Shown piece by piece: positions 3,639-63,934 of a DNA stretch of 64,000 nt. Numbering within the stretch: position 1 is the stretch's first letter; each line of letters begins with the position of its first letter. The notes beneath the pieces are model-generated. The model searched no databases, had not been told where the DNA came from, and was given only the letters and a program-made list of their open reading frames with translations. Position numbers and translations under genes: made by a program. The DNA comes from Streptomyces hundungensis (lineage in GTDB: Bacteria; Actinomycetota; Actinomycetes; Streptomycetales; Streptomycetaceae), in NCBI RefSeq assembly GCF_003627815.1, contig NZ_CP032698.1, forward strand, positions 6,696,001-6,760,000. The letters run 5' to 3'.

Positions 3639-3645
3639 GCGAGGG

Positions 3646-5548: not shown

Positions 5549-5578
5549 CCCCCACGTAGAACCGCCCGGCCCCACGCC

Positions 5579-5611
5579 ACCGCCCCCTCCCGGCAGCCGG
5601 GAGGGGGCGGT
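5579..5611. terminator. Bidirectional hairpin terminator between lipase and LPMO
   Basis: A perfect 15-bp stem (ACCGCCCCCTCCCGG, loop CAG, complementary arm) lies between two convergent genes, 30 bp after the lipase stop and 12 bp before the LPMO stop. There is no U-tract, which is usual for Streptomyces. Confidence 0.85.
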
Positions 5612-5623
5612 GTGCCGTACGGG

Positions 5624-6685: not shown

Positions 6686-6890
6686 CGTGAGGTACTCCTT
6701 CGACGGTGCGCGGGCATGGGGCGCGTGGGGGTGTGCGACGGTCGGACATCCCGTCCGGCGCTCAGCACGCTAGCCCCGCGAAACCGTGAAATCCCCTGCT
6801 GGGAGCGGGTGATGGCGATCCTTATGGTCGCGTTAAGAGGCCACTCAGAACGCATTAAGAACGCGGGCGCCCGCGACGTACCGTGTCCCC

Positions 6891-7367: not shown

Positions 7368-7408
7368 TCGCCGGATCGATTGTCAGTGGTGCCTGGCAGC
7401 ATCGGGGC

Positions 7409-7987: not shown

Positions 7988-8083
7988 CGCCAGCCGGCGG
8001 TGCGGGAGGGCGGTGGGCATGCTCCGGTCGGCCGCCCACAGCGCGGCGGCGGGCCGCGTGACCCCCCGGCCCCGGGGAACGGC

Positions 8084-8584
8084 TCAGTCGATCAGCGAGG
8101 TGAACCGGCCCAGTTTCGCGAGGAGTTCGAGCTCCTCCAGGGCGGCCAGCGCGCGGGCCGCCGCCTCGGGGTCGCGTTCGGCGAGCCCGCTCTCGGCGAA
8201 CTCGTCCTCGTCCAGGCGCAGTACGGTCGCGCCGTCGGCCGAGAGCCAGAGGTCGAGGTCCAGGTCCTCGGCCAGCACCTCGCCGTCCCGGACCACCGCG
8301 GGCCGCGTGATGTCGCAGTACCAGCCCTTGAGCACCGAGTCGGCGTCCCGGACCTCCTTCACCGCGTACCAGCGGTCGCGCCAGTAGTGCTCGGTGAAGA
8401 CGTCGCCGGGCTCGAACCGTACGAAGCCGAAGTCACGGACGCCGTCCGCGGCCCAGGGCGCGCGCACGCTCAGCCGGGTTCCGTCGTCGGCGATCACCGA
8501 CGCGGGGTAACGCAGCTTCGTACGACCGGACTTGACCAGAACGATCTCGATACGGGCGTCGGCCTCGGCCGAGCTCGTGGACAT
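8084..8584 (-). CDS. DUF402 domain protein (possible nucleotide phosphatase)
   Basis: 166-aa cytosolic protein. The central region matches DUF402: FEPGDVFTEHYWRDRWYAVKEVRD, then GWYCDITRPAVV and a conserved acidic stretch DLDLDLWLSADG with EDEF. Some family members are metal-dependent nucleoside tri/diphosphatases, and the acidic residues here are compatible with that; the activity is inference. The ATG at 8584 has a good GGAGG site (CGGAGGTATGTG). It is convergent with the methyltransferase and divergent from the YtrA-type regulator. Confidence 0.8.
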   Translation of the reverse strand: MSTSSAEADARIEIVLVKSGRTKLRYPASVIADDGTRLSVRAPWAADGVRDFGFVRFEPGDVFTEHYWRDRWYAVKEVRDADSVLKGWYCDITRPAVVRDGEVLAEDLDLDLWLSADGATVLRLDEDEFAESGLAERDPEAAARALAALEELELLAKLGRFTSLID

Positions 8585-8767
8585 CACATACCTCCGTGGC
8601 AGGGACTGCGCGGGCCGACCTCGACCTCCGCCGCACGCTACGCGGCCGCCCGGCACCGCCGCCTCCCCATTTCGGACCCGCGCCGGGCGGACCCGGGTCG
8701 GCCCGGCGCGGGTGAACGGGGGCCCGGCGCGTTCTCGTCCGGTTCCGGCGCGGGGGAGAATCGGACG

Positions 8768-9142
8768 GTGACCCTGAAGATCGTGATCGACCCGGGCGCG
8801 ACCACCGCGCCGTACGAGCAACTGCGCGCCCAGATCGCCGACCGGGCCCGCTCCGGGAAGCTGCCGGTGGGCTTCAAGCTGCCCACGGTCCGCGGCCTCG
8901 CCGAGGACCTCGGCCTGGCCGCGAACACGGTGGCCAAGGCCTACCGGGCCCTGGAGGCGGACGGGGTCATCGAGACCCGGGGCCGCAACGGGACGTTCAT
9001 CGCGGCGGCGGGGGACGCGTCGGAGCGTCTCGCCGCGGCCGCCGCCGCCACCTACGCGGGGGAGGCCCGCAGGCTCGGCCTGAGCCGCGAAGCGGCCCGC
9101 ACCGCGATCGAGGAAGCGCTACGGGCGGCATACGACAAGTAG
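8768..9142 (+). CDS. GntR family transcriptional regulator, YtrA-like (short C-terminus)
   Basis: 124-aa protein. Residues about 10-75 form the winged helix of GntR proteins (APYEQLRAQIADRARSGKLP ... LPTVRGLAEDLGLAANTVAKAYRALEADGVIETRG). The C-terminus is only about 50 residues of helix, so it lacks FCD/UTRA/MocR effector domains. Such YtrA-type repressors usually control ABC exporters, but none is adjacent here. The GTG start at 8768 follows GGGGGAGAA. Confidence 0.88.
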   Translation: MTLKIVIDPGATTAPYEQLRAQIADRARSGKLPVGFKLPTVRGLAEDLGLAANTVAKAYRALEADGVIETRGRNGTFIAAAGDASERLAAAAAATYAGEARRLGLSREAARTAIEEALRAAYDK

Positions 9143-9148
9143 GCCCCG

Positions 9149-9173
9149 GGGCCGGGGAGAGAAGCCCCGGCCC
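9149..9173. terminator. Hairpin after the YtrA-like gene
   Basis: GGGCCGGGG (9149-9157) pairs perfectly with CCCCGGCCC (9165-9173) around a 7-nt loop, starting 6 bp after the stop. It also lies between this gene and the convergent AAA ATPase gene. Confidence 0.6.
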
Positions 9174-9190
9174 GGCCGCCCCCCTCCGCG

Positions 9191-9232
9191 TCCTACAGAT
9201 CGCGCCCTACAGATCGCGTCCTACAGATACAG
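9191..9232. repeat. 14-bp tandem triplication overlapping the stop codon of the AAA gene
   Basis: TCCTACAGATCGCG, CCCTACAGATCGCG and TCCTACAGATACAG are three consecutive 14-bp units. The innermost contains the TAG stop (9221-9223, minus strand) of the AAA ATPase gene, so each outer unit carries a copy of the same CTGTAG end. It looks like slippage at the gene's 3' end. Confidence 0.8.
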
Positions 9233-10315
9233 CCCCGCGTCCGCCCCCGCGCGCTGGTCCGGGACCGAGGCCGGGGAAGTGCCTCGGCGCAGTGCGTACA
9301 GCTCGGCCAGGGTGGCGCCGTCATGGGCGACGCCCTCCTCCGTGCCGAGCCAGCCGACCGCCTCCGACCGGGTCAGCGGGCCGACCTCGATACGGGCCAG
9401 ACAGCGGCCGGGCCGGACCACCGCCGGGTGCAGGCGCTCCAGGTCCTCGTTGGTCGTGACGCCGACCAGCACGTTGCGGCCCTGGCCGAGCAGGCCGTCG
9501 GTCAGGTTGAGCAGCCTCGAAAGGGCCTGGCCCGCCGTGTGTTTGGCCTCGCCGCGGATCAACTCGTCGCAGTCCTCCAGGAGCAGCAGGCGCCAGCGGC
9601 CCTTCGCGCTGCCGTCGTCCTCGCCGATCGCGATGTCCATCAGATAGCCGACGTCGTTGAAGAGCCGCTCGGGGTCGAGCACACAGTCCACCTGGCACCA
9701 GTCGCGCCAGGACCGGGCCAGCGTGCGCAGCGCCGAGGTCTTGCCGGTGCCGGGCGGCCCGTGCAGCAGGAGCAGCCGCCCCGCGATGTCGTCCGGGGTC
9801 ATCTTCATCAGGCGGTCGAGCGCGTCGGCCACCGGCGCCGTGTAGTTGGGCCGCACCTCGTCCCAGGTGCCCGCCGCGATCTGCCGCGTCGTGCGGTGCG
9901 GGCCGCGCCGGGGCGACACGTACCAGAAGCCCATCGTGACGTTCTCGGGCTGTGGCTCCGGCTCGTCCTCGGCGCCGTCGGTGGCCTGTTTCAGTACCTG
10001 CTCGGCCAGCTCCTCGCTGGTCGCGGTCACGGTGACGTCCGCGCCCCGGTTCCAGCGCGAGACGAGCAGGGTCCAGCCCGGGCCCTCCGCGAGCGTCGCG
10101 CTGCGGTCGTCGTCGCGGGCGGCGCGCAGCACCTTCGCGGCGGGCGGCAGCAGAGTGAGGCCCTTCTTGACCCGGTCGATGGAGGAGCTGTGCGAGAACG
10201 GCTGCTCGCCCGTGGCGAAGCGGCCGAGGAAGAGGGCGTCGACGACGTCGGACGGTGAGTCGCTGTCGTCCATGGTCAGCCGAATCGGCAGCGCGGCCTC
10301 AGGGTGTGCGGACAT
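9221..10315 (-). CDS. AAA family ATPase (DUF5925-type)
   Basis: 364 aa. The N-terminal 150 residues form a domain typical of actinobacterial DUF5925 proteins. The ATPase part has Walker A GPPGTGKT, Walker B LLLLEDCDEL, a sensor-like VGVTTNE and an arginine finger region (RPGRCLARIEVG), i.e. a classical AAA core. No partner is obvious nearby; the role may be remodelling or chaperone-like, but this is unknown. The start is the ATG at 10315; another in-frame ATG at 10324 is equally possible, and neither has a strong ribosome-binding site. Confidence 0.8.
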   Translation of the reverse strand: MSAHPEAALPIRLTMDDSDSPSDVVDALFLGRFATGEQPFSHSSSIDRVKKGLTLLPPAAKVLRAARDDDRSATLAEGPGWTLLVSRWNRGADVTVTATSEELAEQVLKQATDGAEDEPEPQPENVTMGFWYVSPRRGPHRTTRQIAAGTWDEVRPNYTAPVADALDRLMKMTPDDIAGRLLLLHGPPGTGKTSALRTLARSWRDWCQVDCVLDPERLFNDVGYLMDIAIGEDDGSAKGRWRLLLLEDCDELIRGEAKHTAGQALSRLLNLTDGLLGQGRNVLVGVTTNEDLERLHPAVVRPGRCLARIEVGPLTRSEAVGWLGTEEGVAHDGATLAELYALRRGTSPASVPDQRAGADAGLYL

Positions 10316-10680
10316 GGCGCCCATGATCCGGCAACGCGCCCGCGTGCGCACGTGTTTTGTCCCGTTGACGCTCCTGGGACGTTCTGCCCCCGTTCCGGCG
10401 AAACCGTCCGGAATGACACCTGCCACCGACCCGCCGCCCGGGACGAAACCTCGTCGAGGGCCCCCGGCAGCCTTGTACCCACGCCGATTCGCATACGGGA
10501 CACGGCAGTTGACACACTGTCAGCGGAGTGTGGTGCTCCGGTGAAGGATTACTCGCGAGTTGCTGACGGATCACCAGATAGCCGTGGATGTCCGTCAGTT
10601 GTTCTTGGCATGGACACTTCCCGCGCCGAGTGGGGGCTGGTACCACTGCCGTGGCGGAAAACCCGCTACAAGGAGGTTCC
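10316..10680. promoter_or_regulatory. 365-bp divergent region with dyads before the GDSL esterase
   Basis: Two inverted repeats are visible: TGACA-CAC-TGTCA (10510-10522), and CTGACGGA (10563-10570) with TCCGTCAG (10591-10598) 20 bp apart. The GTCAG/CTGAC element recurs at both. They lie 80-170 bp before the esterase ATG, where an activator or repressor could act. A strong AAGGAGG ribosome-binding site precedes 10681. I see no gene here. Confidence 0.4.
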
Positions 10681-11490
10681 ATGAAACTGTCCCGAATCGC
10701 GGCTTATGCATGGGCGCTCGTGCTGACGGTCGCGCTTTCCCTCACCGGGGCCGGCGTGGCGGCTGCGGCAACCCAGGCGGCCGGATCCCACTACGTGGCG
10801 CTCGGCGACTCGTACTCCTCCGGCGTCGGAGCCGGAAGCTACGACAGCGCGAGCGGCAGCTGCAAGCGCTCCACGAAGGCCTACCCGGCCCTGTGGGCGG
10901 CGGCGCACTCACCCGCCTCGTTCAACTTCACCGCGTGTTCCGGCGCTCGTACGAGTGATGTGACGTCGAGCCAGCTCGGCCCGCTCAGCTCGACCACCGA
11001 CCTCGTCTCGATCAGCATCGGAGGCAACGACGCCGGCTTCTCGGACGTCATGACCAGCTGCGTCCTGTACTCGGAGTCCACCTGCCTCAGCAAGGTGGCG
11101 GCGGCCCGCGCCTACGTCGACTCGACGCTGCCCGGACTGCTCGACTCGGTGTACTCGGCGATCAGATCCAAGGCCCCCAACGCCCATGTCGTCGTCATCG
11201 GCTACCCGCACTTCTACAAGATCGGCGGCAGCTGCATCGCGGGCCTGAGCGACACGTCCCGTTCGGCGATCAACGGCGCCGCCGACGAGCTCAACACGGT
11301 GACCGCCAAGCGCGCGGCCGACCACGGCTACAGCTTCGCCGAGGTCGTCTCGGGCTTCACCGGACACGAGATCTGCACCAGCAGCCCGTGGCTGAACAGC
11401 GTCGTGTGGACCAACATCGGCGAGTCCTACCACCCCACCGCCGCCGGCCAGTCCGGCGCCTACCTGCCCGCCTTCACCCGCGCGGCCTGA
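10681..11490 (+). CDS. Secreted GDSL/SGNH esterase-lipase
   Basis: 269 aa. The signal peptide ends near AAAA (residue 30). Block I is GDSYSSG with nucleophile Ser44, block III GGND gives Asn116, and block V has His251 (YHPTAAGQ). Six Cys in the mature protein fit the three disulfides known for the Streptomyces extracellular SGNH lipase family (S. scabies esterase, S. rimosus lipase). It hydrolyses acyl esters outside the cell. The start is unambiguous from AAGGAGGTTCC. It converges on the kinase gene with 6 bp between. Confidence 0.93.
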   Translation: MKLSRIAAYAWALVLTVALSLTGAGVAAAATQAAGSHYVALGDSYSSGVGAGSYDSASGSCKRSTKAYPALWAAAHSPASFNFTACSGARTSDVTSSQLGPLSSTTDLVSISIGGNDAGFSDVMTSCVLYSESTCLSKVAAARAYVDSTLPGLLDSVYSAIRSKAPNAHVVVIGYPHFYKIGGSCIAGLSDTSRSAINGAADELNTVTAKRAADHGYSFAEVVSGFTGHEICTSSPWLNSVVWTNIGESYHPTAAGQSGAYLPAFTRAA

Positions 11491-11496
11491 AACCGC

Positions 11497-13119
11497 TCAG
11501 CCGGAGGGCGAAGCCGAGCCCGTCGGTGAGGAAGAGGAGGAGGCCCCGCCCGTCGGGGTCTCCTCCTCGCACGTCACCCGGTACGCCACCGCACCGGACG
11601 ACGCCTTCACCGGCCCGCGCACCTCGACATGGACCTCGTTGGAACCGCTGCGCGACGGCGACTCGGTGTGCGCGACCTGCCGGGTCCTCGGCCCGCCCGA
11701 GGCGAAGGAGAGCGTCTGCCAGGCCGGGTCGCCGGAACGGCCGTCCCGGGTGACCCAGCGGTACTCCACGTCCGCCGGTGTCCGGCCCACCGTGAACGCG
11801 GCGACCATCGAGGGCGCCGACGCGCTCGGCGCCGGGCAGCGCCCCTGGTAACTCCCGCGCACGACGTGCAGGTCGACCTCCACCGACTGCGGGGGCGGCG
11901 ACGAGGGGGAGGGGCTCGGGGAGGCGCCGCTGGTGGACGGGGAAGGGGCGGGAGACGTGCCCGCGGGCGTGCCGCCGCCGGTCGCGGGCGGCGCGGAGTG
12001 CGGAAGGGAGGGCGCGCGCGAGGCGCTCGGCGAACCCCCGCCGTCATCGCGCCCCTTGTCCCGCACCAGCGCGTACACCAGGAAACCCAGCACGAGCAGC
12101 AGCACCACCACCCCGGCCAGCACCACCGCCCCGGTGTGCTGCCGACGGCCGTCGTCCTCGCCGGTCGTGACCGTGCCGGCGCCGGTGGATCCGGCCGCGG
12201 GCCGCGGCAGTACGGACGTCGGCGCCATCGCGGGCGGCCCGACCGCCACCGTCGTGGCCTCGAAGCGGCCCGGCACCGGGCGCACCGTGCCGCCCGCCGC
12301 GACCAGCCGCAACTGGTGCTCCGCCTCTTCGACAGGCGGTCGCTCCGCCGGGTCCTTCCGCAGCAGACCCTCGATGACCGGAGCCAGCGGGCCCGCCCGG
12401 CGCGGCGGCGGCAGTGCGTCGTCGACCACCGCCCGCAGCGTGGACAGCGGGGTGTCGTGGCGGAACGGGGAGTTGCCCTCGACCGCCGCGTACAGGAGCA
12501 CACCCAGCGACCACAGGTCCGAGGCGGGCCCGGGCGTGCGCCCCAACGCCCGCTCGGGGGCGAGGAATTCGGGCGACCCGACGACTTCGCCGGTCAGGGT
12601 GAGCGTCTGGGTCCCCGCCACCGTCGCGATGCCGAAGTCGGTCAGGACCACCCGGCCGTCGTTGGCGAGCAGCACGTTCGCCGGTTTCACATCGCGGTGC
12701 AGCACCCCCGCGTCGTGTGCGGAGCGCAGCGCGGCGAGCACCTCGGCGCCGATCCGCGCGGTGCGCTGCGGGCTCAACGGCCCCTCCGCGTCCAGTACGT
12801 CCGACAGGGCGAGCCCGCGCACCAGCTCCATGACGATCCACGGCCGGCCGTCCTCGGTCGCCACGTCGTACACCGTCACCACATTGCGGTGCGAGACCCG
12901 GGCCGCCGCCCACGCCTCCCGCTCCAGGCGCGCGTACAGCCGTGCCTCCTCGGCGGCGTCCAGCGCGGCGGGCGCTCGGACCTCCTTGACGGCGACCTCG
13001 CGCCCCAGGACCTCGTCCCGCGCGCGCCACACCACGCCCATGCCGCCCCGGCCCAGGGGCGAGAGGAGCCGGTAGCGCCCCGCGATCAATCGCTGCTCAC
13101 TGCCCGGCACTTCGCTCAC
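11497..13119 (-). CDS. Membrane-bound Ser/Thr protein kinase (PknB type)
   Basis: 540 aa. Kinase domain about 15-275: glycine loop GRGGMG (23-28), Lys45 (VAVKEV), catalytic HRDVKPAN (141-148), DFG (161-163) and APE (187-189). A juxtamembrane Pro-rich region and one transmembrane helix (about 331-352) follow. The extracellular part is a Pro/Ser/Thr-rich linker and a beta-type domain with two Cys (RGSYQGRCP, YRVTCEE). No PASTA repeats are seen, so the sensor differs from PknB itself. The ligand is unknown. It is divergent from the small basic protein gene. Confidence 0.92.
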   Translation of the reverse strand: MSEVPGSEQRLIAGRYRLLSPLGRGGMGVVWRARDEVLGREVAVKEVRAPAALDAAEEARLYARLEREAWAAARVSHRNVVTVYDVATEDGRPWIVMELVRGLALSDVLDAEGPLSPQRTARIGAEVLAALRSAHDAGVLHRDVKPANVLLANDGRVVLTDFGIATVAGTQTLTLTGEVVGSPEFLAPERALGRTPGPASDLWSLGVLLYAAVEGNSPFRHDTPLSTLRAVVDDALPPPRRAGPLAPVIEGLLRKDPAERPPVEEAEHQLRLVAAGGTVRPVPGRFEATTVAVGPPAMAPTSVLPRPAAGSTGAGTVTTGEDDGRRQHTGAVVLAGVVVLLLVLGFLVYALVRDKGRDDGGGSPSASRAPSLPHSAPPATGGGTPAGTSPAPSPSTSGASPSPSPSSPPPQSVEVDLHVVRGSYQGRCPAPSASAPSMVAAFTVGRTPADVEYRWVTRDGRSGDPAWQTLSFASGGPRTRQVAHTESPSRSGSNEVHVEVRGPVKASSGAVAYRVTCEEETPTGGASSSSSPTGSASPSG

Positions 13120-43014: not shown

Positions 43015-43841
43015 TTGGGGGGCCTCCTCCGGGGGATGGGTGGGGTGGGCACGGTACAGCGCGTTGAACGGCCTGACCCCCTGGGGCTCCGCCCCAGACC
43101 CCGCGGGTTCGCCCACCCACCCGCCCGTGACGGGGGTTGGACAGCCCGGGCCCCTGGGGCTCCGCCCCAGACCCCGTATCGCGCCTTAAGGGCGCTCGTC
43201 CTCAATCGCCGGACGGGCTGAGGGGGCCGACGCGGGCCCGCACCGAGCAGTTAGGGGCGCGGGGAACTGCGCGACCAGCCCCCCACGACCCGCAGCCGAA
43301 AACGGGTTTTCAGGGGCGCGAGGAACTGCGCGAGAAGCGACCACGGCCCGCAGGCCGAGAGCGGGGTTAGGGGCGCGGGGAACTGCGCGACCAGCCACGC
43401 ACGGTGCGAGGACGAAAACGGGTTTTGAGGGGCGCGAGGAACTGTGCGAGAAGCGACCACGGCCCGCAGGCCGAGAGCGGGGTTAGGGGCGCGGGGAACT
43501 GCGCGGGACGCGGGCACGGTCCGCGGACGGCCGAGCACCTAAGGGGCGCGGGGAACTGCGCGATCAGCCACGCACGGTGTGAGGGCGCAAGGGGGTTAGG
43601 GGCGCGGGGAACTGCGCGATCAGCCACGCACGGTGTGAGGGCGCAAGGGGGTTGGGGGCGCGGGGAAGTGGTACGGGCCGCAGGGCCGGAGCGGCAGTAG
43701 GGGGTGGTGGTGGCGCGGGGCCGGCCGTGGCCGCCCGGGCCGTCGGGAGGAGGCCGTGGGGCCTCGCGGGTTGGGGGTTTCGGGGGGCATACCGACCGGT
43801 TAGTCTGTCGGGGCATCCGGCACGCAGAGAGGCGGGTCTCC
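43015..43841. repeat. Intergenic repeat cluster: hairpins plus eight copies of a GGCGCGGGGAACTGCGCG unit
   Basis: 827 bp without a gene. Two CTGGGGCTCCGCCCCAG hairpins (43081-43097, 43154-43170) are followed by a unit at 43191-43221 (GGCGCTCGTCCTCAATCGCC plus GGACGGGCTGA). Then eight units start at 43254, 43313, 43370, 43429, 43486, 43543, 43599 and 43655 (the last degenerate), spaced 56-59 bp. Spacers are related to each other (units 2 and 4 near-identical, 6 and 7 identical). The same parts recur at 63563-63848. I recall such sequences as common intergenic repeats in Streptomyces; function unknown. Confidence 0.92.
43786..43805. promoter_or_regulatory. TetR-type operator before the SDR/ligase operon (site B)
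   Basis: GGCATACCGACCGGTTAGTC contains GCATACCGACCGGT (43787-43800), identical to site A at 22205-22218 (minus strand) and a one-base variant of site C at 49310-49323. It ends 41 bp before the ATG at 43842. Confidence 0.75.
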
Positions 43842-44615
43842 ATGAGCACGGGACAGACGGCCGAGGGCACCACCGTGGTGGTCACCGGCGCGGGCGGCGG
43901 CATCGGCGCCGCCCTCGCCCGTAGATTCGCGGCGCAGGGCGCCCGGGTCGTCGTCAATGATCTGGACGCGGACAAGGCCCGCAGGACCGCCGAGGAGATC
44001 GGCGCCATCGCCGTGCCGGGCGACGCCTCCACCGTCGTGGGGGCCGCCCGCGACGCCCTGGGCGGGACCATCGACGTCTACTGCGCCAACGCGGGCCTGG
44101 GCTCGGGCGGTTCGGAGTCCGCGCCCGAGGACGTGTGGGCCGCCGCCTGGGACGTCAATGTGATGGCCCACGTCCGCGCGGCCCGTGAGCTGCTGCCCGA
44201 TTGGCTGGAGCGCGGACGGGGCCGCTTCGTGTCGACCGTCTCCGCCGCCGGCCTGCTCACGATGATCGGCGCGGCGCCGTACAGCGTCACCAAGCACGGC
44301 GCGCTGGCCTTCGCCGAATGGCTGTCGCTGACCTACCGCCACCGCGGCATCCAGGTCCACGCCATCTGCCCGCAGGGGGTGCGCACCGACATGCTGGCCG
44401 ACACCGGGACCGCCGGTGACCTCGTGCTCAAGCCCACCGCGATCGAGCCGGACGAGGTCGCCGACGCGCTCTTCGCCGCGATGGCGGAGGATCGCTTCCT
44501 GGTGCTGCCGCACCCCGAGGTCGCCGACTACTACACGGCCCGCGCCGCCACCCCGGACCGCTGGCTGACCAGCATGAACCACCTTCAGCAGAAGTGGGAG
44601 GCGAGCGCCGGATGA
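43842..44615 (+). CDS. Short-chain dehydrogenase/reductase
   Basis: 257 aa. NAD(P) motif TGAGGGIG, catalytic Tyr-Lys in YSVTK with Ser upstream (STVSAAG), and NAG in YCANAGLG. It interconverts an alcohol and a ketone; a role on a keto- or hydroxyacyl-CoA is suggested by the neighbours. The stop overlaps the ligase start (ATGA), so the two are coupled. It is like LvaD of the levulinate pathway in class and context only. The start at 43842 follows AGAGAGGCGGG. Confidence 0.92.
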   Translation: MSTGQTAEGTTVVVTGAGGGIGAALARRFAAQGARVVVNDLDADKARRTAEEIGAIAVPGDASTVVGAARDALGGTIDVYCANAGLGSGGSESAPEDVWAAAWDVNVMAHVRAARELLPDWLERGRGRFVSTVSAAGLLTMIGAAPYSVTKHGALAFAEWLSLTYRHRGIQVHAICPQGVRTDMLADTGTAGDLVLKPTAIEPDEVADALFAAMAEDRFLVLPHPEVADYYTARAATPDRWLTSMNHLQQKWEASAG

Positions 44616-46264
44616 GCTCGATCTATGCGACCAAACCCTGGCTTTCCCAGCTCAGCGCCGCCCAGCGGGCGGACATCGACCCGCCGGAGACGGTGCTCGA
44701 CTCCTTCCGCGCCGCCGTCGCCCGCGCCCCCGAACACACCGCGCTCGCCTACTTCGACGGCCGGCTCAGCTACCGCGAGGTCGATGAGCTGTCCGATTCC
44801 GTGGCCGGTCACCTCGCCGCGCGGGGCCTGGTGCGGGGCGACCGGGTCGCGCTCATGCTCCAGAACAGCCCGCACTTCGTGATCGCCCTGCTCGGCGCGT
44901 GGAAGGCCGGGGCCACCGTCGTGCCGCTCAACCCGATGTACAAGGCGGGCGAGGTCGCGCACGTCCTGCACGACGCCGAGGCCGCCGCGCTGATCTGCTC
45001 CGACCGCGCCTGGGAGGGCTATCTGCGCGACACTGCGGCCGACTCCCCGGTGCGCGTCGCGCTCACCGCCTGCGAGCTCGACCTCCAGAGCCGCGACGAC
45101 GAGCGGGTCCTCGGCTTCGAGCGGCTGCCCGTGGCCGCCGATGCCGACGACCTTCTCGCTGTCGCCCGGCAGGGCCTCGCCGCCCCCTCGGGACGGGAAC
45201 TCGGCGGTGGGGACACGGCGTTGATCAGTTACACCTCCGGCACCAGCGGGACCCCCAAAGGCGCGATGAACACCCATCGCGGCATCACCTACCAGGCGGA
45301 GAGGCAGCGCACCGGGCATCCGATACCGCCGGGCGCGGGCTACTTCGCGCTCGCTCCGCTCTTCCACATCACCGGCATGGTCTGCGAGCTGGCGACGTGC
45401 GTCGCCAACGCGGGCACCCTCGTCCTGACCTACCGCTTCCACCCGGGCGTCGTCCTGGACGCGTTCGTCGAGCACCGCCCCGCCTACACGGTCGGACCCT
45501 CCACGGCCTTCATGGCGCTCGCGGCCACCCCCGGAGCCACCCCCGAGCACTTCGCCTCCTTCAAGCTCATCTCCTCGGGCGGCGCGCCCCTGCCGCCCGC
45601 GCTCGTCGAGAAGTTCCGCGAGGGCTTCGGACCGTACATCCGCAATGGCTACGGCCTCACCGAGTGCACCGCCCCCTGTGCCTCGGTGCCACCCGAGAAG
45701 GAGGCGCCCGTCGACCCGGTCTCCGGCACCCTGTCGGTCGGCGTGCCCGGCCCCGAGACGGTCGTACGGATCGTCGGCCCCGAAGGCAAGGAGGTCCCCT
45801 TCGGCGAGCAGGGGGAGATCGTGGTGCGCGGGCCCCAGGTCGTGCCCGGTTACTGGCGCCGGCCCGAAGCCACCGTCGAGGCGTTTCCCGACGGCGAACT
45901 GCGCACCGGCGACATCGGGTTCATGGACCGCGACGGCTGGCTCTATGTGGTCGACCGCATGAAGGACATGATCAACGCGTCCGGCTTCAAGGTCTGGCCG
46001 CGCGAGGTCGAGGACGTCCTGTACAGCCACCCGGCGGTCCGCGAGGCAGCCGTCGTGGGCATCCCGGATTCCTACCGCGGGGAGAGCGTCAAGGCGTACG
46101 TCAGTCTGCGCCCGGGCGCCGAGGCGGGCCCGGCCGAGCTCGCCGCGTACTGCAAGGAGCGGCTCGCCGCCTACAAATACCCCCGCGAGGTGGAGATCCT
46201 GGCGGAGCTTCCCAAGACCACGAGTGGGAAGATCCTCAGGCGGGAGCTGCGCACCCAGGCGTAG
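44612..46264 (+). CDS. AMP-dependent acyl-CoA synthetase/ligase
   Basis: 550 aa. The AMP-binding P-loop is ISYTSGTSGTPKGAMN, then NGYGLTECTAP (A5), ELRTGDIGFMDRDGWLYVVDR (A7/A8) and the C-terminal lysine in LPKTTSGKILRREL (A10). It activates a carboxylic acid as acyl-AMP and loads CoA. The acid is unknown; medium-chain or 4-hydroxy/keto acids are suggested by the module. Start ATG 44612, coupled to the SDR. A 139-bp gap follows before the TetR gene. Confidence 0.95.
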   Translation: MSSIYATKPWLSQLSAAQRADIDPPETVLDSFRAAVARAPEHTALAYFDGRLSYREVDELSDSVAGHLAARGLVRGDRVALMLQNSPHFVIALLGAWKAGATVVPLNPMYKAGEVAHVLHDAEAAALICSDRAWEGYLRDTAADSPVRVALTACELDLQSRDDERVLGFERLPVAADADDLLAVARQGLAAPSGRELGGGDTALISYTSGTSGTPKGAMNTHRGITYQAERQRTGHPIPPGAGYFALAPLFHITGMVCELATCVANAGTLVLTYRFHPGVVLDAFVEHRPAYTVGPSTAFMALAATPGATPEHFASFKLISSGGAPLPPALVEKFREGFGPYIRNGYGLTECTAPCASVPPEKEAPVDPVSGTLSVGVPGPETVVRIVGPEGKEVPFGEQGEIVVRGPQVVPGYWRRPEATVEAFPDGELRTGDIGFMDRDGWLYVVDRMKDMINASGFKVWPREVEDVLYSHPAVREAAVVGIPDSYRGESVKAYVSLRPGAEAGPAELAAYCKERLAAYKYPREVEILAELPKTTSGKILRRELRTQA

Positions 46265-46307
46265 TACCCCCCGGCCCCGGCCGGCGGACCCGCCCGGCAC
46301 GACCGGT

Positions 46308-46391
46308 ACAGCACGAACAGCACCAACAGCACGAAGAGCACACGACGAGGGCTCGATCCCTCACGCGCGTACGAGAGACACGTACGAGAGA
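46308..46391. repeat. 9-bp microsatellite and an 11-bp direct repeat before the TetR gene
   Basis: ACAGCACGA, ACAGCACCA, ACAGCACGA and AGAGCACAC are four consecutive units (46308-46343). CGTACGAGAGA occurs twice, at 46368-46378 and 46381-46391, ending 12 bp before the TetR ATG. The second pair could be an operator or a leader element; the first looks like slippage. Confidence 0.6.
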
Positions 46392-46403
46392 AAGGTGGCG
46401 GCG

Positions 46404-47000
46404 ATGGCCAAGGCGACGGACACGAGTGGCACCACCCCCGTGCCCCAGCGGCTGCTCGCCGCCGCCACCCGCCTGTTCGCGGAGAACGGCTACGACCGCA
46501 CCTCCGTGCAGGAGATCGTCGAGGCGGCCGGCGTCACCAAGGGCGCGCTCTACCACTACTTCGGGTCCAAGGAGGATCTGCTCCAGGAGGTGTACGCCCG
46601 GGTGCTGCGCCTCCAGCAGGAGCGGCTCGACGCGTTCGCCGACGCCGACGAGCCGATCGAGCGCAGGCTGCGCGAGGCGGCCGCCGACGTGGTGGTGACC
46701 ACCATCGACAACCTCGACGACGCCGCGATCTTCTTCCGCTCGATGCACCATCTGAGCCCGGAGAAGAACAAGCAGGTCCGTGCGGAGCGCCGCCGCTACC
46801 ACGAGCGGTTCCGTGCGCTCGTCGAAGAGGGCCAGAACGCCGGGGTGTTCTCCACGGCCACCCCGGCCGATCTGGTGGTGGACTACCACTTCGGCTCGGT
46901 CCACCACCTGTCCACCTGGTACCGCCCGGACGGCCCGCTCACCCAGCAGCAGGTCGCCGATCATCTGGCCGACCTGCTGCTGCGCGCCCTGCGTCCCTGA
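46404..47000 (+). CDS. TetR family regulator of the acyl-CoA module (KstR2-like)
   Basis: 198 aa. Helix-turn-helix at about 15-60 (TRLFAENGYDRTSVQEIVEAAGVTKGALYHYFGSKEDLL). The C-terminal domain (FFRSMHHLSPEKNKQVRAERRRYHERFRALVEEGQ) is typical of repressors of CoA-ester catabolism. It lies between the two operons that share sites B and C, so it is their most likely regulator. Start: ATG 46404 after AAAGGTGGCGGCG. It converges with the acyl-CoA dehydrogenase, 12 bp between stops. Confidence 0.9.
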   Translation: MAKATDTSGTTPVPQRLLAAATRLFAENGYDRTSVQEIVEAAGVTKGALYHYFGSKEDLLQEVYARVLRLQQERLDAFADADEPIERRLREAAADVVVTTIDNLDDAAIFFRSMHHLSPEKNKQVRAERRRYHERFRALVEEGQNAGVFSTATPADLVVDYHFGSVHHLSTWYRPDGPLTQQQVADHLADLLLRALRP

Positions 47001-47012
47001 ACTACCCGGTCG

Positions 47013-48227
47013 CTACAGGTACTTCTTCAGTTCGCGGCGGGCCAGCGAGCGCTGGTGCACCTCGTCCGGCCCGTCCGCGAGCCTCAACGTCCTTGCCGAG
47101 GCCCACAGTTCGGCCAGCGGGAAGTCCTGGCTCACGCCGCCCGCGCCGTGCAGTTGGATCGCCTTGTCGATGATGTCGAGGACGGTGCGCGGGGTGGCGA
47201 TCTTGATGGCCTGGATCTCGGTGTGCGCCCCGCGGTTGCCCACCGTGTCCATCAGCCAGGCCGTCTTGAGGACGAGCAGCCGTACCTGCTCGACCGCGAC
47301 GCGGGCGTCCGCGATCCACTCCTGCACCACGCCCTGCTGAGCCATCGGCTTGCCGAAGGCCGTACGGGACACGGCCCTTCGGCACATCAGCTCGATCGCC
47401 CGCTCGGCCATTCCGATCAGCCGCATGCAGTGGTGGATCCGGCCGGGTCCCAGCCGCGCCTGCGCGATGGCGAAGCCGCCGCCGGCCTCCCCGATCAGGT
47501 TGCTCGCGGGCACCCGGGCCCCGTGGAAGACGACCTCCGCGTGACCGCCGTGGGAGTGGTCCTCATAGCCGTACACCTGCATGGCGCGGCGGATCTCGAC
47601 GCCCGGGGTGTCGCGGGGGACCAGGACCATCGACTGCTGGCGGCGCACATCGGCGTTGCCGGGGTCGGTCTTGCCCATCACGATGAAGATCGCGCAGTCC
47701 GGGTTCATCGCGCCGGAGATGTACCACTTGCGCCCGGTGATGACGTAGTCGTCGCCGTCCCGCTCGATGCGGGTCTCGATGTTGGTGGCGTCCGAGGAGG
47801 CGACCTCGGGCTCGGTCATCGCGAAGGCGGAACGGATCTCACCGGCGAGCAGCGGCTGGAGCCACTGCTTCTTCTGCTCGTCCGAGCCGAACTGGGCGAG
47901 CGCCTCCATGTTGCCGGTGTCGGGGGCGGCGCAGTTGAGGGCGGTGGGCGCCAAGTGCGGGGAGCGGCCGGTGATTTCGGCCAGTGGGGCGTACTGGAGG
48001 TTGGTGAGGCCCGCGCCGTGCTCGGCGTCGGGGAGGAACAGGTTCCACAGGCCCTGCCTGCGCGCCTCTGCCTTCAGGTCCTCCACCACCTGGGGGGTGT
48101 CCCACGGCGAGGCGAGCTGGGCGCGCTGCTCATGGGCGGTGACCTCGGCGGGGTGGACGTACTCGTCCATGAAGGCGAGGAGCGTGGCCCGCAGTTCTTC
48201 GGTGCGGGCGTCGTATGCGAAGTCCAT
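47013..48227 (-). CDS. Acyl-CoA dehydrogenase, ACAD10/11-like
   Basis: 404 aa. Motifs: AFAMTEPEVASSDATNIETR (FAD/substrate loop), KWYISGAMNPDCAIFIVMGK, RIHHCMRLIGMAERAIELM, and C-terminal LRLADGPDEVHQRSLARREL, the GPDEVH pattern of ACAD10/11-type proteins. It follows the kinase by 9 bp on the same strand, so they are co-transcribed. In mammals one polypeptide (ACAD11) carries both domains for 4-hydroxyacyl-CoA catabolism; here they are separate. In Pseudomonas LvaC plays the matching part. Confidence 0.92.
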   Translation of the reverse strand: MDFAYDARTEELRATLLAFMDEYVHPAEVTAHEQRAQLASPWDTPQVVEDLKAEARRQGLWNLFLPDAEHGAGLTNLQYAPLAEITGRSPHLAPTALNCAAPDTGNMEALAQFGSDEQKKQWLQPLLAGEIRSAFAMTEPEVASSDATNIETRIERDGDDYVITGRKWYISGAMNPDCAIFIVMGKTDPGNADVRRQQSMVLVPRDTPGVEIRRAMQVYGYEDHSHGGHAEVVFHGARVPASNLIGEAGGGFAIAQARLGPGRIHHCMRLIGMAERAIELMCRRAVSRTAFGKPMAQQGVVQEWIADARVAVEQVRLLVLKTAWLMDTVGNRGAHTEIQAIKIATPRTVLDIIDKAIQLHGAGGVSQDFPLAELWASARTLRLADGPDEVHQRSLARRELKKYL

Positions 48228-48236
48228 GACGGGCTT

Positions 48237-49259
48237 TCAGCCTTCCTGAAGGGTGGTGAGGCCGTGCTCGATGAAGACGGGGACCAGTTCGCCGATGCGG
48301 TCGAACCCGGCGCCCACCGTCTGGCCCAGGGTGTAGCGGTAGTGGATGCCTTCGAGGATCACGGCGAGCTTGAACCAGGCGAACGCCGTGTACCAGGAGA
48401 GGGCGGAGGTGTCGCGGCCGGAGCGGGCCGCGTAGCGCTCGATGAGCTCGGCGGGCGAGGGGTGGCCGGCCGCGCCCGCCGTGGTCGAGACCGGCGAGTG
48501 GGGAAGTTCCAGCTTCGCGCTGTACATCACGAGGAGGCCCAGGTCGGTCAACGGGTCGCCCAGGGTGGACATCTCCCAGTCGAGCACCGCCTTGATCCGT
48601 TCGTCGTCACCGATGAGCACGTTGTCCAGGCGGTAGTCGCCGTGGATGACGGTGGGCGCGGGGGAGGTGGGGAGTGCGCGTCCCAGGGCGGCGTGCAGCT
48701 CGTCGATGCCGGCCAGGTCGCGGTTGCGCGAGGCGTCGAGCTGCTTGCCCCAGCGGCGCAGTTGACGGTCGAGGAAGCCCTCGGGCCTCCCGAAGTCCCC
48801 GAGCCCCACGGCCTGCGGGTCCACCGCGTGCAGTTCCACGAGCGTGTCGACCAGCGCGAGCACGGCCGCCCGGGTCCGCTCGGGGCCCAGCGGTGCGAGC
48901 TGTTCGGCGGTGCGGTAGGGCGTGCCGGTCACGTACTCCATGACGTAGAACGGCGAGCCGAGCACCGACTCGTCCTCGCAGAGCAGCACCGGCTCCGGCA
49001 CCGGGACGGCCGTAGGGTGCAGGGCGCTGATGACCCGGTGCTCGCGGCGCATGTCGTGCGCGGTGGCGAGCACATGCCCCAGCGGCGGCCGGCGCACGAC
49101 CCACTGGCCGGTCCCGTCCGTGACGACATACGTCAGGTTCGAGCGGCCCCCCTCGATCAGCCGGGCCGTGAGCGGTCCGCTCACCAGACCGGGCCGCACG
49201 CGGTCGAGGTGGGCCCGCAGCGTCTCCGGGTCGAGGCCTGGCGGGGGGACTGTGCTCAT
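48237..49259 (-). CDS. APH-type phosphotransferase (LvaA/ACAD11 kinase-like)
   Basis: 340 aa in the aminoglycoside-phosphotransferase fold. The kinase motifs are VIHGDYRLDNVLIGD (catalytic loop, Asp and Asn) and KAVLDWEMSTLGDPLTDLG (metal-binding Asp). This is the acyl-CoA-linked group in the family rather than antibiotic resistance enzymes: LvaA phosphorylates 4-hydroxyvaleryl-CoA. The start ATG 49259 has a good GGAGGTG site; a GTG at 49268 is in frame. Operator site C lies just upstream. Confidence 0.88.
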   Translation of the reverse strand: MSTVPPPGLDPETLRAHLDRVRPGLVSGPLTARLIEGGRSNLTYVVTDGTGQWVVRRPPLGHVLATAHDMRREHRVISALHPTAVPVPEPVLLCEDESVLGSPFYVMEYVTGTPYRTAEQLAPLGPERTRAAVLALVDTLVELHAVDPQAVGLGDFGRPEGFLDRQLRRWGKQLDASRNRDLAGIDELHAALGRALPTSPAPTVIHGDYRLDNVLIGDDERIKAVLDWEMSTLGDPLTDLGLLVMYSAKLELPHSPVSTTAGAAGHPSPAELIERYAARSGRDTSALSWYTAFAWFKLAVILEGIHYRYTLGQTVGAGFDRIGELVPVFIEHGLTTLQEG

Positions 49260-49304
49260 CTGCGGCACCTCCGGAACGGGTCGGGCGACTGTCCGAAGAC
49301 ACGC

Positions 49305-49323
49305 TACCGACCAGTCGGTATGC
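49305..49323. promoter_or_regulatory. TetR-type operator before the kinase/dehydrogenase operon (site C)
   Basis: TACCGAC-CA-GTCGGTA (49305-49320) is a perfect 7-bp dyad. On the minus strand it reads GCATACCGACTGGT (49310-49323), shared with sites A and B apart from one pyrimidine. It lies 46 bp before the kinase start. Confidence 0.8.
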
Positions 49324-50785: not shown

Positions 50786-51682
50786 TCAGTGCGGCTGGAG
50801 GTCGCGGGACTCCTCCGGGGACGCCGTGCCCGAGGGCATCGCCGGATGCAGACCGAGCAGCACGATCCCCGTCACGATCGCCGCGAGCCCCGCCGCCTCC
50901 CAGGCAAGCGCGCCCGTGTCGGTACGCAGCCGGTCGCCCAGGAAGCCGACCCCGCAGGCGATTCCGGCGAGCGGCTGGGCGGCCGTCAGGGCGGGCAGCG
51001 ACATCCGCAGCGGCGCCGTCTCGAAGGCGCTCTGCACCAGGACGAGCCCGGTCACCCCCAGCGCGATCACCCCGTACAGCTGCCAGCTCGTCAGCAGCTC
51101 CGACCAGCCGCCGCCCGAAAGACGCTGTCCGCTGATCCGGGTCAGCGCGTCCTGGAGGCCGTACAGCAGGCCCGCCGCGACGGCCAGCAGGACGGGGGCC
51201 GCCACGCTGAGCCGATCGTGTTTGGCGAGGCCCGCCATGAGCAGCGCGATGCCGACCACAAGACCCACGATCAGCCAGTGCCGCAGCGCGCCCGCCTCCG
51301 CGACGCCACCGTGCGGCTGGCCCGCCACGATGAACGCCGTCACCCCGCCCGCGAGCAGGGCCAGACCCGCCCAGCCCTGGCGGCCCAGCGGCTGGCGGGT
51401 CTGGAGGCGGGACAGCCACATGGCGAAGAACAAGTTGGTCGCCACCAGCGGTTCGACCAGGGAGACCTCGCCCGAGCCGAGGGCGAGCGCGCTGAGCACC
51501 ATCCCCGCCACCATCAGGCCTATCCCCGCCAGCCAGCGCGGCATCCGCACCAGGTCGAGCAGGAGCCGCGGCGACAGGAAGTCGCTGATCGGGGCGTGCT
51601 GCGCCGCGTTCTGTTGCAGCACGAAGCCCGAGCCCAGACAGCAGGCTGCGCTCACGGCGAGGACGAGGACCAGGACCGACAC
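50786..51682 (-). CDS. EamA-like DMT superfamily membrane protein
   Basis: 298 aa with nine or ten helices (VLVLVLAVSAACCLGSGFVL ... GLAAIVTGIVLLGL). It has the DMT layout, but the second half is less standard. GTG 51682 is set by an AGGTG site; GTG 51691 is an alternative. The cargo is unknown. It is divergent from the FAD dehydrogenase. Confidence 0.78.
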   Translation of the reverse strand: MSVLVLVLAVSAACCLGSGFVLQQNAAQHAPISDFLSPRLLLDLVRMPRWLAGIGLMVAGMVLSALALGSGEVSLVEPLVATNLFFAMWLSRLQTRQPLGRQGWAGLALLAGGVTAFIVAGQPHGGVAEAGALRHWLIVGLVVGIALLMAGLAKHDRLSVAAPVLLAVAAGLLYGLQDALTRISGQRLSGGGWSELLTSWQLYGVIALGVTGLVLVQSAFETAPLRMSLPALTAAQPLAGIACGVGFLGDRLRTDTGALAWEAAGLAAIVTGIVLLGLHPAMPSGTASPEESRDLQPH

Positions 51683-51848
51683 GACGTGCACCTCAAGTAC
51701 GGCCGGGGGGCGCCGACTTGGCCGACGATAGCGCCCCTGGGGAGAGGCTGCCTCCCGGGCGCCCCGGCCCGGGCGGTTGACGCCGGATGAGCGCCCACCC
51801 AAGATCTGACGCACGAGTAACGTGGCGGACGAGCGGAGTGACGGGCCC

Positions 51849-53504
51849 ATGGCGTACGACGCCGATGTGATCGTGATCGGGGCGGGGCTCGCGGGCCTGG
51901 TGGCCACCGCCGAGCTGGCGGACGCCGGCAGGAAGGTGATCCTGCTCGACCAGGAGCCCGAGCAGTCGCTCGGCGGCCAGGCCCACTGGTCGTTCGGCGG
52001 GCTCTTCCTCGTGGACTCGCCCGAACAGCGCCGCATGCGGATCAAGGACAGCCGGGCGCTCGCGCTCCAGGACTGGTACGGGACGGCCGGCTTCGACCGC
52101 GACGAGGATCGATGGCCGCGTGCGTGGGCCGAGGCCTACGTCGACTTCGCCTCCGGCGAGAAGCGGGCGTGGCTGCACGCCCAGGGGGTGCGGTTCTTCC
52201 CCGTGGTGGGCTGGGCCGAGCGGGGCGGTTACGACGCCAACGGCCATGGCAACTCCGTTCCCCGCTTCCACATCACCTGGGGCACCGGGCCGGGCATAGT
52301 CGCGCCGTTCGAGCGGAGGGTGCGGGAGGCCGCCGCCCGGGGGCTCGTCCGGTTCGGGTTCCGCCATCGGGTGACCGGGCTCGGCCGCAGCGCCGGGGTC
52401 GTCGACACCGTGAGCGGCGAGATCCTCGAACCGTCCGGCGCCGAACGCGGGACGGCGTCCACCCGGACCGTCACCGGATCCTTCGAGCTTACGGCGCAGG
52501 CCGTCATCGTGACCAGCGGCGGCATCGGGGGCAACCACGACCTCGTACGGGCCCAGTGGCCCCAGCGGCTCGGCACCCCGCCGGAGCATCTGCTGTCCGG
52601 AGTGCCCGCCCATGTCGACGGGCTCATGCTCGGCATCACCGAGAAGGCCGGCGCCCACCACATCAACCGCGACCGGATGTGGCACTACACCGAGGGCATC
52701 CAGAACTGGAACCCGATCTGGGCGCGGCACGGCATCCGCATCCTGCCCGGCCCCTCCTCGCTCTGGCTGGACGCCCGCGGCAACCGGCTGCCCGTGCCGC
52801 TGTTCCCCGGCTTCGACACCCTCGGCACGCTCGACCACATCATGAAGACCGGATACGGCCACACGTGGTTCGTGCTCGACCAGAAGATCATCGGCAAGGA
52901 GTTCGCGCTGTCGGGCTCCGAGCAGAACCCCGACCTGACCGGCAAGTCCGTGCGCGGTGTCATCGGGCGGGCCCGGGCCGATGTGCCGGGCCCGGTGCGG
53001 GCGTTCATGGACCGCGGCGCGGACTTCGTCGTCGAGAAGGACCTCGCCGCCCTGGTGCGCGGCATGAACGCGCTCACCGAGGAGCCCCTCCTCGACGAGG
53101 CGGCGCTGCGCCGCGAGATCGTGGCCCGGGACCGCGAGATCGCCAACCCGTTCACCAAGGACCTCCAGGTCACCGCCATCCGGGGGGCCCGCAACTACCT
53201 CGGCGACAAGCTCATCCGCACCGCGGCCCCGCACCGCATCCTCGACCCGAAGGCCGGCCCGCTGATCGCGGTCAAGCTGCACATCCTGACCCGCAAATCG
53301 CTCGGCGGACTGGAGACCGACCTGTCCTCCCGCGTGCTCACCGCGACCGGCGAGCCCCTGCCCGGCGTGTACGCGGCGGGGGAGGCGGCCGGGTTCGGCG
53401 GTGGTGGCGTGCACGGCTACCGCTCGCTCGAAGGCACCTTTCTCGGCGGCTGCCTCTTCTCGGGCCGGGCCGCGGGCCGCGCGGCGGCGAAGGCCGTCTC
53501 CTAG
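51849..53504 (+). CDS. FAD-binding dehydrogenase (fumarate reductase/ketosteroid dehydrogenase flavoprotein family)
   Basis: 551 aa. The ADP-binding motif DVIVIGAGLAGLVATAELADAG is at residues 5-26, with Glu/Asp at the second strand end (LLDQEPEQSLGGQAHWSFGG). The C-terminal FAD motif GVYAAGEAAGFGGGGVHGYRSLEGTFLGG is the flavoprotein family pattern. It probably desaturates or reduces a carbonyl-conjugated substrate, as 3-ketosteroid dehydrogenases do. The ATG at 51849 begins MAYDADVIVIG; a GTG at 51822 is in frame. The following gap is 233 bp. Confidence 0.9.
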   Translation: MAYDADVIVIGAGLAGLVATAELADAGRKVILLDQEPEQSLGGQAHWSFGGLFLVDSPEQRRMRIKDSRALALQDWYGTAGFDRDEDRWPRAWAEAYVDFASGEKRAWLHAQGVRFFPVVGWAERGGYDANGHGNSVPRFHITWGTGPGIVAPFERRVREAAARGLVRFGFRHRVTGLGRSAGVVDTVSGEILEPSGAERGTASTRTVTGSFELTAQAVIVTSGGIGGNHDLVRAQWPQRLGTPPEHLLSGVPAHVDGLMLGITEKAGAHHINRDRMWHYTEGIQNWNPIWARHGIRILPGPSSLWLDARGNRLPVPLFPGFDTLGTLDHIMKTGYGHTWFVLDQKIIGKEFALSGSEQNPDLTGKSVRGVIGRARADVPGPVRAFMDRGADFVVEKDLAALVRGMNALTEEPLLDEAALRREIVARDREIANPFTKDLQVTAIRGARNYLGDKLIRTAAPHRILDPKAGPLIAVKLHILTRKSLGGLETDLSSRVLTATGEPLPGVYAAGEAAGFGGGGVHGYRSLEGTFLGGCLFSGRAAGRAAAKAVS

Positions 53505-63543: not shown

Positions 63544-63934
63544 ACCCCAACGGTGCCTGCCGCCCTGGGGCTCCGCCCCAGACCCCGTTCGCGCCTTGAG
63601 GGCGCTCGTCCTCAATCGCCGGACGGGCTGAGGTTGCCCATGCGGGCCAGCACCAGCCCCGCCAGGGGCGCGGGGAACTGCGCGACCAGCCACCCACGAC
63701 CCGCGGACGAAAGCGGAGCTCCCTGGGGCTCTGCCCCAGACCCCGGTCGCGCCTGAACGGCGCTCGTCCTCAAACGCCGGACGGGCTGAGGTGGCCCGTG
63801 CGGGCCAGTGCCGAGTAGTTAGGGGCGCGGGGAACTGCGCGACCAGCCACCTGCGGCCCCAGCCCCGCCAGGGCGCGCGAGCCCAACCCGACCGAACGCG
63901 ACCCGATCCACCCGACCGAACCCACCCTCACAGA
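63544..63934. repeat. Two composite intergenic repeat elements
   Basis: 391 bp without a gene. Copy 1: hairpin CTGGGGCTCCGCCCCAG (63565-63581), GGCGCTCGTCCTCAATCGCC unit (63601-63631), GGCGCGGGGAACTGCGCGA unit (63665-63691). Copy 2: hairpin variant CTGGGGCTCTGCCCCAG (63723-63739), unit with AA for AT (63759-63789), and the third part at 63822-63848. Both follow the same order as at 43154-43280. The last 85 bp, before the next start, are AC-rich and show nothing else. Confidence 0.9.

Follow-up and report, generated by a model that had tools for sequence, protein, structure and literature searches.

The closest described relatives of the gene cluster reported here are the lva operon of Pseudomonas putida and the mammalian proteins ACAD10 and ACAD11. 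The P. putida operon encodes a kinase, an LvaC-type acyl-CoA dehydrogenase (ACAD), a short-chain dehydrogenase/reductase (SDR) and a CoA ligase together (PMC12440821, PMC11342911, PMC6692424). The mechanism proposed for the dehydrogenase comprises transient reduction of FAD, loss of phosphate and return of the hydride, and the LvaA/LvaC pair of Burkholderia pseudomallei is active in place of the ACAD10 domains (PMC11342911). For ACAD11, D753 is described as the catalytic residue, R626, H634 and R637 touch the 4-phosphate in modelling and their mutants lose ACAD activity, and R631 is conserved across all ACADs (PMC12440821). We examined a stretch of 64,000 nucleotides from Streptomyces hundungensis (contig NZ_CP032698.1, positions 6,696,001 to 6,760,000; "the window" hereafter, in which position 1 is the first letter), where genes of the same enzyme classes flank a gene for a TetR-family regulator. 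The module proves genuine; it is conserved, and its regulation is coherent. In our best reading it is very probably a dedicated two-operon regulon that would feed 4-hydroxyacyl-CoA, and through the SDR also 4-oxoacyl-CoA, into beta-oxidation. Pathways of this kind have been described before; what is new is the regulon in Streptomyces, operator included. Among the papers listed from the open-licence PubMed Central literature, the only literature searched, no title dealt with such a module in actinomycetes, which does not prove that none exists.

Genes, families and active-site residues

The first-pass annotation had described five clustered gene classes, and the long open reading frames (ORFs), with the order and strands listed here, together with the Pfam matches bear this out. 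The features are as follows.

43791 to 43804, + strand: operator site B, ACCGACCGGTTAGT (extended GCATACCGACCGGTTAGTCTG), exact match, beginning 51 bp before the SDR start
43842 to 44615, + strand: SDR oxidoreductase, 257 amino acids; ORF with PF00106 at 127 bits and motifs TGAGGGIG, NAG and YSVTK
44612 to 46264, + strand: AMP-forming acyl-CoA ligase, 550 amino acids; PF00501 at 296 bits, PF13193
46404 to 47000, + strand: TetR-family regulator, 198 amino acids, presumed binder of sites B and C; PF00440, PF17932
47013 to 48227, - strand: ACAD10/11-type acyl-CoA dehydrogenase (LvaC-like), 404 amino acids; from PDB sequence search and residues
48237 to 49259, - strand: APH-fold kinase (LvaA/ACAD11-kinase-like), 340 amino acids; PF01636 at 200 bits and PDB sequence search
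49306 to 49319, - strand: operator site C, ACCGACTGGTCGGT (ACCGACCAGTCGGT on the + strand), exact match, beginning 60 bp before the kinase start

The SDR and ligase ORFs overlap through ATGA, and on the opposite strand the kinase gene precedes the ACAD gene with a gap of 9 bases; GTG at 49268 is an alternative kinase start. The main Pfam family matches of all five proteins lie well above cut-off, with TetR_N and TetR_C_24 as the domains of the regulator. No protein reached the cut-off of an NCBIfam model, either among the 25 best rows for the SDR (of 210) and the ligase or among all rows for the TetR, ACAD and kinase, and therefore no curated name fits among the rows considered.

The dehydrogenase gave the clearest assignment. 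In a sequence search of PDB chains its four top matches (8v3u, 8v3v, 4hr3 and 2wbi) spanned 450-461 bits, with ACAD11 at 461 and 459, 458 for 4hr3 and 450 for 2wbi, a fragment of ACAD11, and the next chain was an ordinary ACAD at 144 bits. Residues R258, R263, H266, R269 and D385 align with R626, R631, H634, R637 and D753 of ACAD11 at identical spacing; R258, H266 and R269 sit within RLGPGRIHHCMR, and D385, in LADGPDEVH, occupies the position of the catalytic Asp, as opposed to the usual Glu of other ACADs. The proposal that this is a dehydrogenase of the LvaC/ACAD11 kind is thus upheld by both the scores and the presence of the reported active-site residues. The catalytic Asp and the Arg/His pattern are kept in 47/47 homologous ACADs from the comparison loci (L045-L091). 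Since ACADs that stand without a nearby kinase (L078-L084) keep them too, the residues are a signature of the ACAD family, and local pairing is not proved by them alone.

The kinase resembles the other half of ACAD11. Its best PDB matches in the same type of search were 9o56 (238 bits), 3dxp (184 bits) and the ACAD11 kinase domain (176 and 172 bits), after which the scores fell to 44, 34 and then 26 bits for a macrolide kinase, the best drug-kinase structure. It is 38% identical to the ACAD11 kinase over 303 aligned residues and carries the catalytic motif HGDYRLDN, with D208 and N213. These two residues and R165 align with D220, N225 and the CoA-side R176 of ACAD11 (our numbering of the chain is lower than the published one by one position). 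R72-E73 aligns with an Arg-Glu pair of ACAD11; the published number of the CoA-side Arg beside the alphaC Glu, R86, does not fit our numbering. The HGD..N pattern recurs in 35/37 kinases of L045-L091, without a match in the proteobacterial L085 and L087. The kinase falls under the cut-off for all 8 NCBIfam models that it matched, and its best score against curated resistance families is 37 vs 205 bits; a reading as an antibiotic kinase was rejected on this score together with the 26 bits of the best drug-kinase structure. The matched catalytic residues and the scores against 9o56, 3dxp and ACAD11 support its proposed place with LvaA and ACAD11. The nearest homologues of the pair are neither aminoglycoside kinases nor ordinary fatty-acid enzymes; had they been either, the first-pass annotation would have counted its proposal as refuted.

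In a tree of 30 rows the kinase falls in its own actinobacterial clade (support 88/95), beside a clade of ACAD11, 3dxp and Burkholderia and a clade of 9o56. Its paralogues from the same genome form long branches, some of them built from partial segments, and one (own_L003) is unresolved within the group of the window's kinase.

The likeness to the mammalian proteins covers both parts, a kinase of the same kind and an ACAD with the catalytic Asp and the phosphate-binding R/H/R. Unlike ACAD11 and ACAD10, the window has two separate proteins and no HAD domain, and its regulon adds the TetR, SDR and ligase. Kinase and ACAD are also separate in the Burkholderia-type LvaA/LvaC orthologues, and the window's kinase and ACAD share 40% and 58% identity, respectively, with the pair of B. 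multivorans; however, the Burkholderia-type kinases belong to the clade of ACAD11 and 3dxp and their genes have other neighbours. Taken together, these similarities make it highly probable that the kinase and ACAD perform the phosphorylate-then-eliminate chemistry of ACAD10/11 and LvaA-LvaC.

In family terms the ligase is an acyl-CoA synthetase of a generic type, with feruloyl/fatty-acyl-CoA synthetase as its best PDB chains (272 bits). We considered whether it corresponds to FadD1 of S. coelicolor (SCO6196). This candidate was dropped on its description alone, as SCO6196 is reported to be co-transcribed with another ligase, SCO6195 (PMC8062868).

A shared operator and a conserved gene company

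The two halves of the module are joined by their promoters. Within the window, ACCGACYRGTYRGT is matched exactly at two places only, sites B and C. Site B ends 38 bases before 43842, just outside the range first annotated (43842 to 49323), and site C lies inside it. The looser pattern ACYRACYRGTYRGT occurs exactly at 6 places in the 8.39 Mb genome, B and C included, with 2 per strand for the reversed-pattern control. We then compared 20 Streptomyces loci, picked from few-contig genomes and all carrying the kinase, with start positions for the operator distances taken from alignments. On the SDR side, CATACCGACYGGTTAGTCTG is exact in 19/19 loci with the SDR and lies 39-75 bases ahead of the SDR start; on the kinase side, CATACCGACYRGTCGG is present with 0-1 mismatch in 20/20, 54-94 bases ahead of the kinase start. 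The region upstream of the ACAD gene, which is second in its operon, served as an internal control, and its best match in the 20 loci has 3-5 mismatches; upstream of the TetR and ligase genes, too, every match in these loci has at least 3 mismatches. As both operators are conserved across the Streptomyces loci while the region upstream of ACAD is not, their occurrence is not due to chance, and by phylogenetic footprinting the palindrome is a real regulatory site.

Outside Streptomyces, we examined 13 loci of other genera of the family, chosen for the presence of ACAD, and seven extra loci from genomes of the phylum in which the ACAD stands without a nearby kinase (L078-L084). A site with at most one mismatch precedes the kinase in 9/11 kinase-bearing loci and the SDR in 6/10 loci whose SDR is at least 50% identical. 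Such a site lies before the kinase, SDR, ACAD or TetR gene in 10/11 loci with a TetR; L071 has two-mismatch sites only. In the 9 loci without a TetR nearby (L072, L075, L078-L084), no site with at most one mismatch was found before the kinase, SDR or ACAD, and five of them (L078, L079, L080, L081 and L083) have a one-mismatch match elsewhere in the stretch. The earlier suggestion that a shared operator ties the halves together is therefore strengthened: the site is conserved on both sides in Streptomyces and tracks the TetR in other genera. From this pattern, binding of both sites by the neighbouring TetR is predicted with strong confidence.

A larger regulon was considered and rejected. The four other genomic matches to ACYRACYRGTYRGT lack the CATACCGAC flank, and no third member was therefore added. 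According to our reading of ORFs, one of these matches (L009) is close to a DJ-1/PfpI-like gene, a second (L010) falls within a coding frame, a third (L011) is close to an ABC-transporter-like gene, and the fourth (L014) stands between the genes of a further TetR and an aldo-keto reductase. As a separate observation, a gene for an M28-like secreted peptidase (ORF reading) lies between the TetR and ACAD genes in L045, L047, L048 and L049, and both operators are retained there.

The genes themselves are widespread in the genus. The kinase is matched at E <= 1e-40 in 190/199 Streptomyces genomes, and reading the list of matches gave a best match of 1e-140 or better in 185/199; the remaining five of the 190 are probably paralogues. 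Kinase, ACAD and TetR occur together in 20/20 of the Streptomyces loci and the SDR in 19/20 (missing in L063). A nearly full-length ligase in a single frame is present in 16/20; there is none in L051 and L061, a remnant in L062, and homology split over frames in L047, with the other four genes kept in each case. The module is thus present in all 20 loci, with some gene missing or broken in five. In a sample of the family, the ACAD was found in 55/61 genomes (E <= 1e-100) and the kinase in 58/61 (E <= 1e-60). Of the 13 loci from other genera of the family, six (L068, L069, L073, L074, L076 and L077) hold all five genes, and L070 lacks only the ligase; in L065 and L066 the set is reduced to TetR, operator, kinase and ACAD, and L067, L071, L072 and L075 hold other subsets. 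An SDR of at least 50% identity lies near the ACAD in 19/20 Streptomyces loci and in 10/13 of these loci; among the latter ten, L067 has no kinase nearby.

Across 149 genomes of the phylum, kinase and ACAD were found together in 57 and were both missing from 84, with the ACAD alone in 5 and the kinase alone in 3 (Fisher p 2.5e-31, uncorrected for shared ancestry). The cut-offs were E <= 1e-80 for ACAD (62 genomes) and E <= 1e-30 for the kinase (60), with at most 12-14 candidates scored per genome.

Two plasmids carry related gene sets in other settings. On plasmid 28 of Tsukamurella tyrosinosolvens (L090), positions 88-13045 hold, in one direction, genes for an SDR (56% identical to the window's), a medium-chain dehydrogenase/reductase (MDR), a HAD phosphatase, MaoC, the kinase, three ACADs, a phosphotriesterase-family protein and a ligase. 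The phosphotriesterase family includes lactonases, and the cluster looks like a larger operon for the catabolism of lactones or 4-hydroxy acids. On a plasmid of Streptomyces sp. NBC_00388 (L091, 1-15203), a kinase-ACAD pair 56% and 72% identical to the window's shares its stretch with genes annotated as an AfsA-related hotdog protein, ketosynthase III and a CoA-transferase; this pair may have been recruited to biosynthesis, perhaps of a lactone-related kind.

Two further features of the window were recorded. An ORF at 51822-53504 resembles a FAD-binding dehydrogenase and one on the opposite strand at 50786-52045 resembles a DMT-type membrane protein; by rough ORF calling and matching by eye, homologues of the former accompany the module in 12 of the 20 Streptomyces loci and homologues of the latter in 11. 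Just before the SDR promoter, at 43254-43618, there are seven copies (0-2 mismatches) of GGGGCGCGGGGAACTGCGCG with a period of about 57 bases, and the repeat recurs at 63665-63841. Exact copies number 592 genome-wide (316 on the + strand, 276 on the - strand) against 0 for the reversed control, and a search of the open-licence PubMed Central literature for the first 19 bases as a string found nothing.

The proposed pathway and its alternatives

Gene families, active-site residues, paired conserved operators and co-occurrence are read from the sequence itself, and from them we infer the catalytic steps, repressor binding, inducer and substrate. The ligase would form a CoA thioester and the SDR would reduce 4-oxoacyl-CoA to 4-hydroxyacyl-CoA; we consider its action on a 4-oxo/4-hydroxy pair somewhat more likely than not, with reduction as the putative direction. 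The APH-fold kinase would then phosphorylate the 4-hydroxyl, and the ACAD10/11-type flavoenzyme would remove the phosphate by transient redox of FAD, yielding a 2-enoyl-CoA. TetR would repress both operons through sites B and C until released by an acid or CoA ester of the pathway.

Several observations weigh against this scheme. No characterised protein is known to us from the actinobacterial clade of the kinase, which is separate from those of ACAD11 and 9o56. The assignment of the kinase therefore rests on similarity, residues and gene company and not on a close relative of known function. The ligase is dispensable, being absent, a remnant or split in 4/20 Streptomyces loci. In 5/62 ACAD-bearing genomes of the phylum no kinase reached the cut-off, and 9/20 loci outside Streptomyces (L067, L072, L078-L084) have no kinase near the ACAD. 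All nine of these genomes have a kinase match elsewhere (40-62% identity).

As to what the pathway would consume, there is about an even chance that it serves the salvage or detoxification of longer acids of the 4-hydroxy or 4-oxo type or of gamma-lactones, such as oxidised lipids might yield, as an analogue of mammalian ACAD11. The kinase is near-universal in Streptomyces, and the substrate is thus probably common or self-made. An MDR gene also speaks for longer acids: it lies in the cluster in 8/13 non-Streptomyces family loci (65-83% identical to that of L074) and on the Tsukamurella plasmid (67%), and its best NCBIfam model is a PIG3 quinone reductase, below cut-off (246 vs 297 bits). The MDR superfamily includes enone and enal reductases, and this MDR, if enone-reducing, would supply 4-oxoacyl-CoA to the SDR. 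On the other side, chain length is not readable from sequence, and the MDR orthologue in the window's genome (76%) lies about 5.5 Mb away, adjoining genes that we read as of beta-oxidation type. The divergent promoter of this orthologue (L095, site 2518) has CATACTAAGCGGTCGCTTG, with 2 mismatches to the operator pattern, which resembles the SDR-side site of some other genera.

Alternatively, the TetR may control one half only, or the SDR-ligase operon may serve a different pathway that shares the regulator. Unrelated genes such as the peptidase separate the halves in several genomes; near the TetR, operator, kinase and ACAD of L065 and L066 there is no ligase and no SDR exceeding 35%, and in L067 the TetR, operator, ACAD and SDR are accompanied by neither ligase nor kinase. 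However, the operator is conserved at both promoters, and in other lineages (L067, L071, L075, L090) the SDR orthologue adjoins the ACAD whether or not the kinase is there. We therefore hold such a division of the regulon to be rather unlikely.

A true levulinate or gamma-valerolactone operon, equivalent to lva of P. putida, is also unlikely. The same enzyme classes do stand in one regulon, including the grouped kinase, LvaC-type ACAD, SDR and CoA ligase, and the kinase and ACAD are homologous to LvaA/LvaC-type proteins. However, the window has two transcription units and a TetR with palindromic operators, the domains of this regulator being TetR_N and TetR_C_24 and not those of an LvaR-type protein. 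LvaR is a sigma-54 activator. The name LvaR appears in PMC10164729. The SDR, too, is apparently of another subfamily, judged from two proteobacterial clusters: it is 26-27% identical to the SDRs of the ACAD-APH clusters of Azoarcus and Azospirillum, two proteins that share 63% identity and fall under model PRK07035. A contig search with an SDR profile gave SDR-APH(-ACAD) clusters of other proteobacteria, and in the 40 of 80 loci examined (L098-L137) neither LvaD nor LvaB was identifiable. One of these, from a metagenome-assembled genome of Desulfobacteraceae (L133), has an SDR 48% identical to the window's adjoining a query-type SDR, with no kinase or ACAD match there; the window's SDR type is thus not confined to actinobacteria.

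By inspection, no LvaB was seen among the five ORFs, with no LvaB sequence compared. According to PMC6692424, a P. putida lvaB mutant is unable to grow on levulinate, an lvaE mutant still grows, and a P. citronellolis cluster is described without LvaB. The lack of LvaB therefore speaks against an operon of the P. putida type and not against the chemistry. Loss or breakage of the ligase in 4/20 loci also counts against an lva equivalent, although growth of the lvaE mutant tempers this point, and a short chain length draws no support from sequence. The levulinate part of the first-pass annotation consequently lacks support: levulinate as a settled substrate was rejected in view of the SDR subfamily, the type of regulator and the ligase loss, to which the separate kinase clade may be added. 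That levulinate or gamma-valerolactone is the main natural substrate is improbable, and the label should be dropped until tested.

Finally, an ordinary cluster for beta-oxidation of fatty acids beside an unrelated APH-fold kinase, for example for antibiotic resistance, might be suggested by some database names of the kinase and by the generic fatty-acyl type of the ligase, but it is disfavoured by the ACAD11-specific residues, the dehydrogenase scores (461 vs 144 bits), resistance-model scores far under cut-off and the co-occurrence of kinase and ACAD, and we consider it very improbable.

The dedicated regulon for 4-hydroxyacyl-CoA can be set in a broader scheme, which we offer tentatively and think unlikely to hold as a whole. 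It would be a near-core TetR regulon of Streptomyces that salvages 4-oxo-2-enoic, 4-oxo and 4-hydroxy acids and gamma-lactones, with an MDR enone reductase (clustered in relatives), the SDR, a split ACAD11-type kinase and the ACAD acting in series as a bacterial counterpart of mammalian 4-hydroxy-lipid catabolism; its substrate would be a self-made or soil lactone or an acid from lipid oxidation, and not levulinate.

Among the 120 database rows listed for the kinase, the closest proteins come from Streptomyces species. Most rows bear the name "phosphotransferase family protein"; others read "aminoglycoside phosphotransferase (APT) family kinase" or, alternatively, "acyl-CoA dehydrogenase". With such generic or misleading names, a likely enzyme of central metabolism in an antibiotic-producing genus is easily overlooked. 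If our reading is true, Streptomyces would have a 4-hydroxyacyl-CoA pathway that is open to testing and is turned on and off by a switch of its own. This switch would offer a simple route to the natural 4-hydroxy acid, as its inducer, and would be a candidate biosensor, and the separate kinase and ACAD would provide a genetically tractable single-domain model for ACAD10/11.

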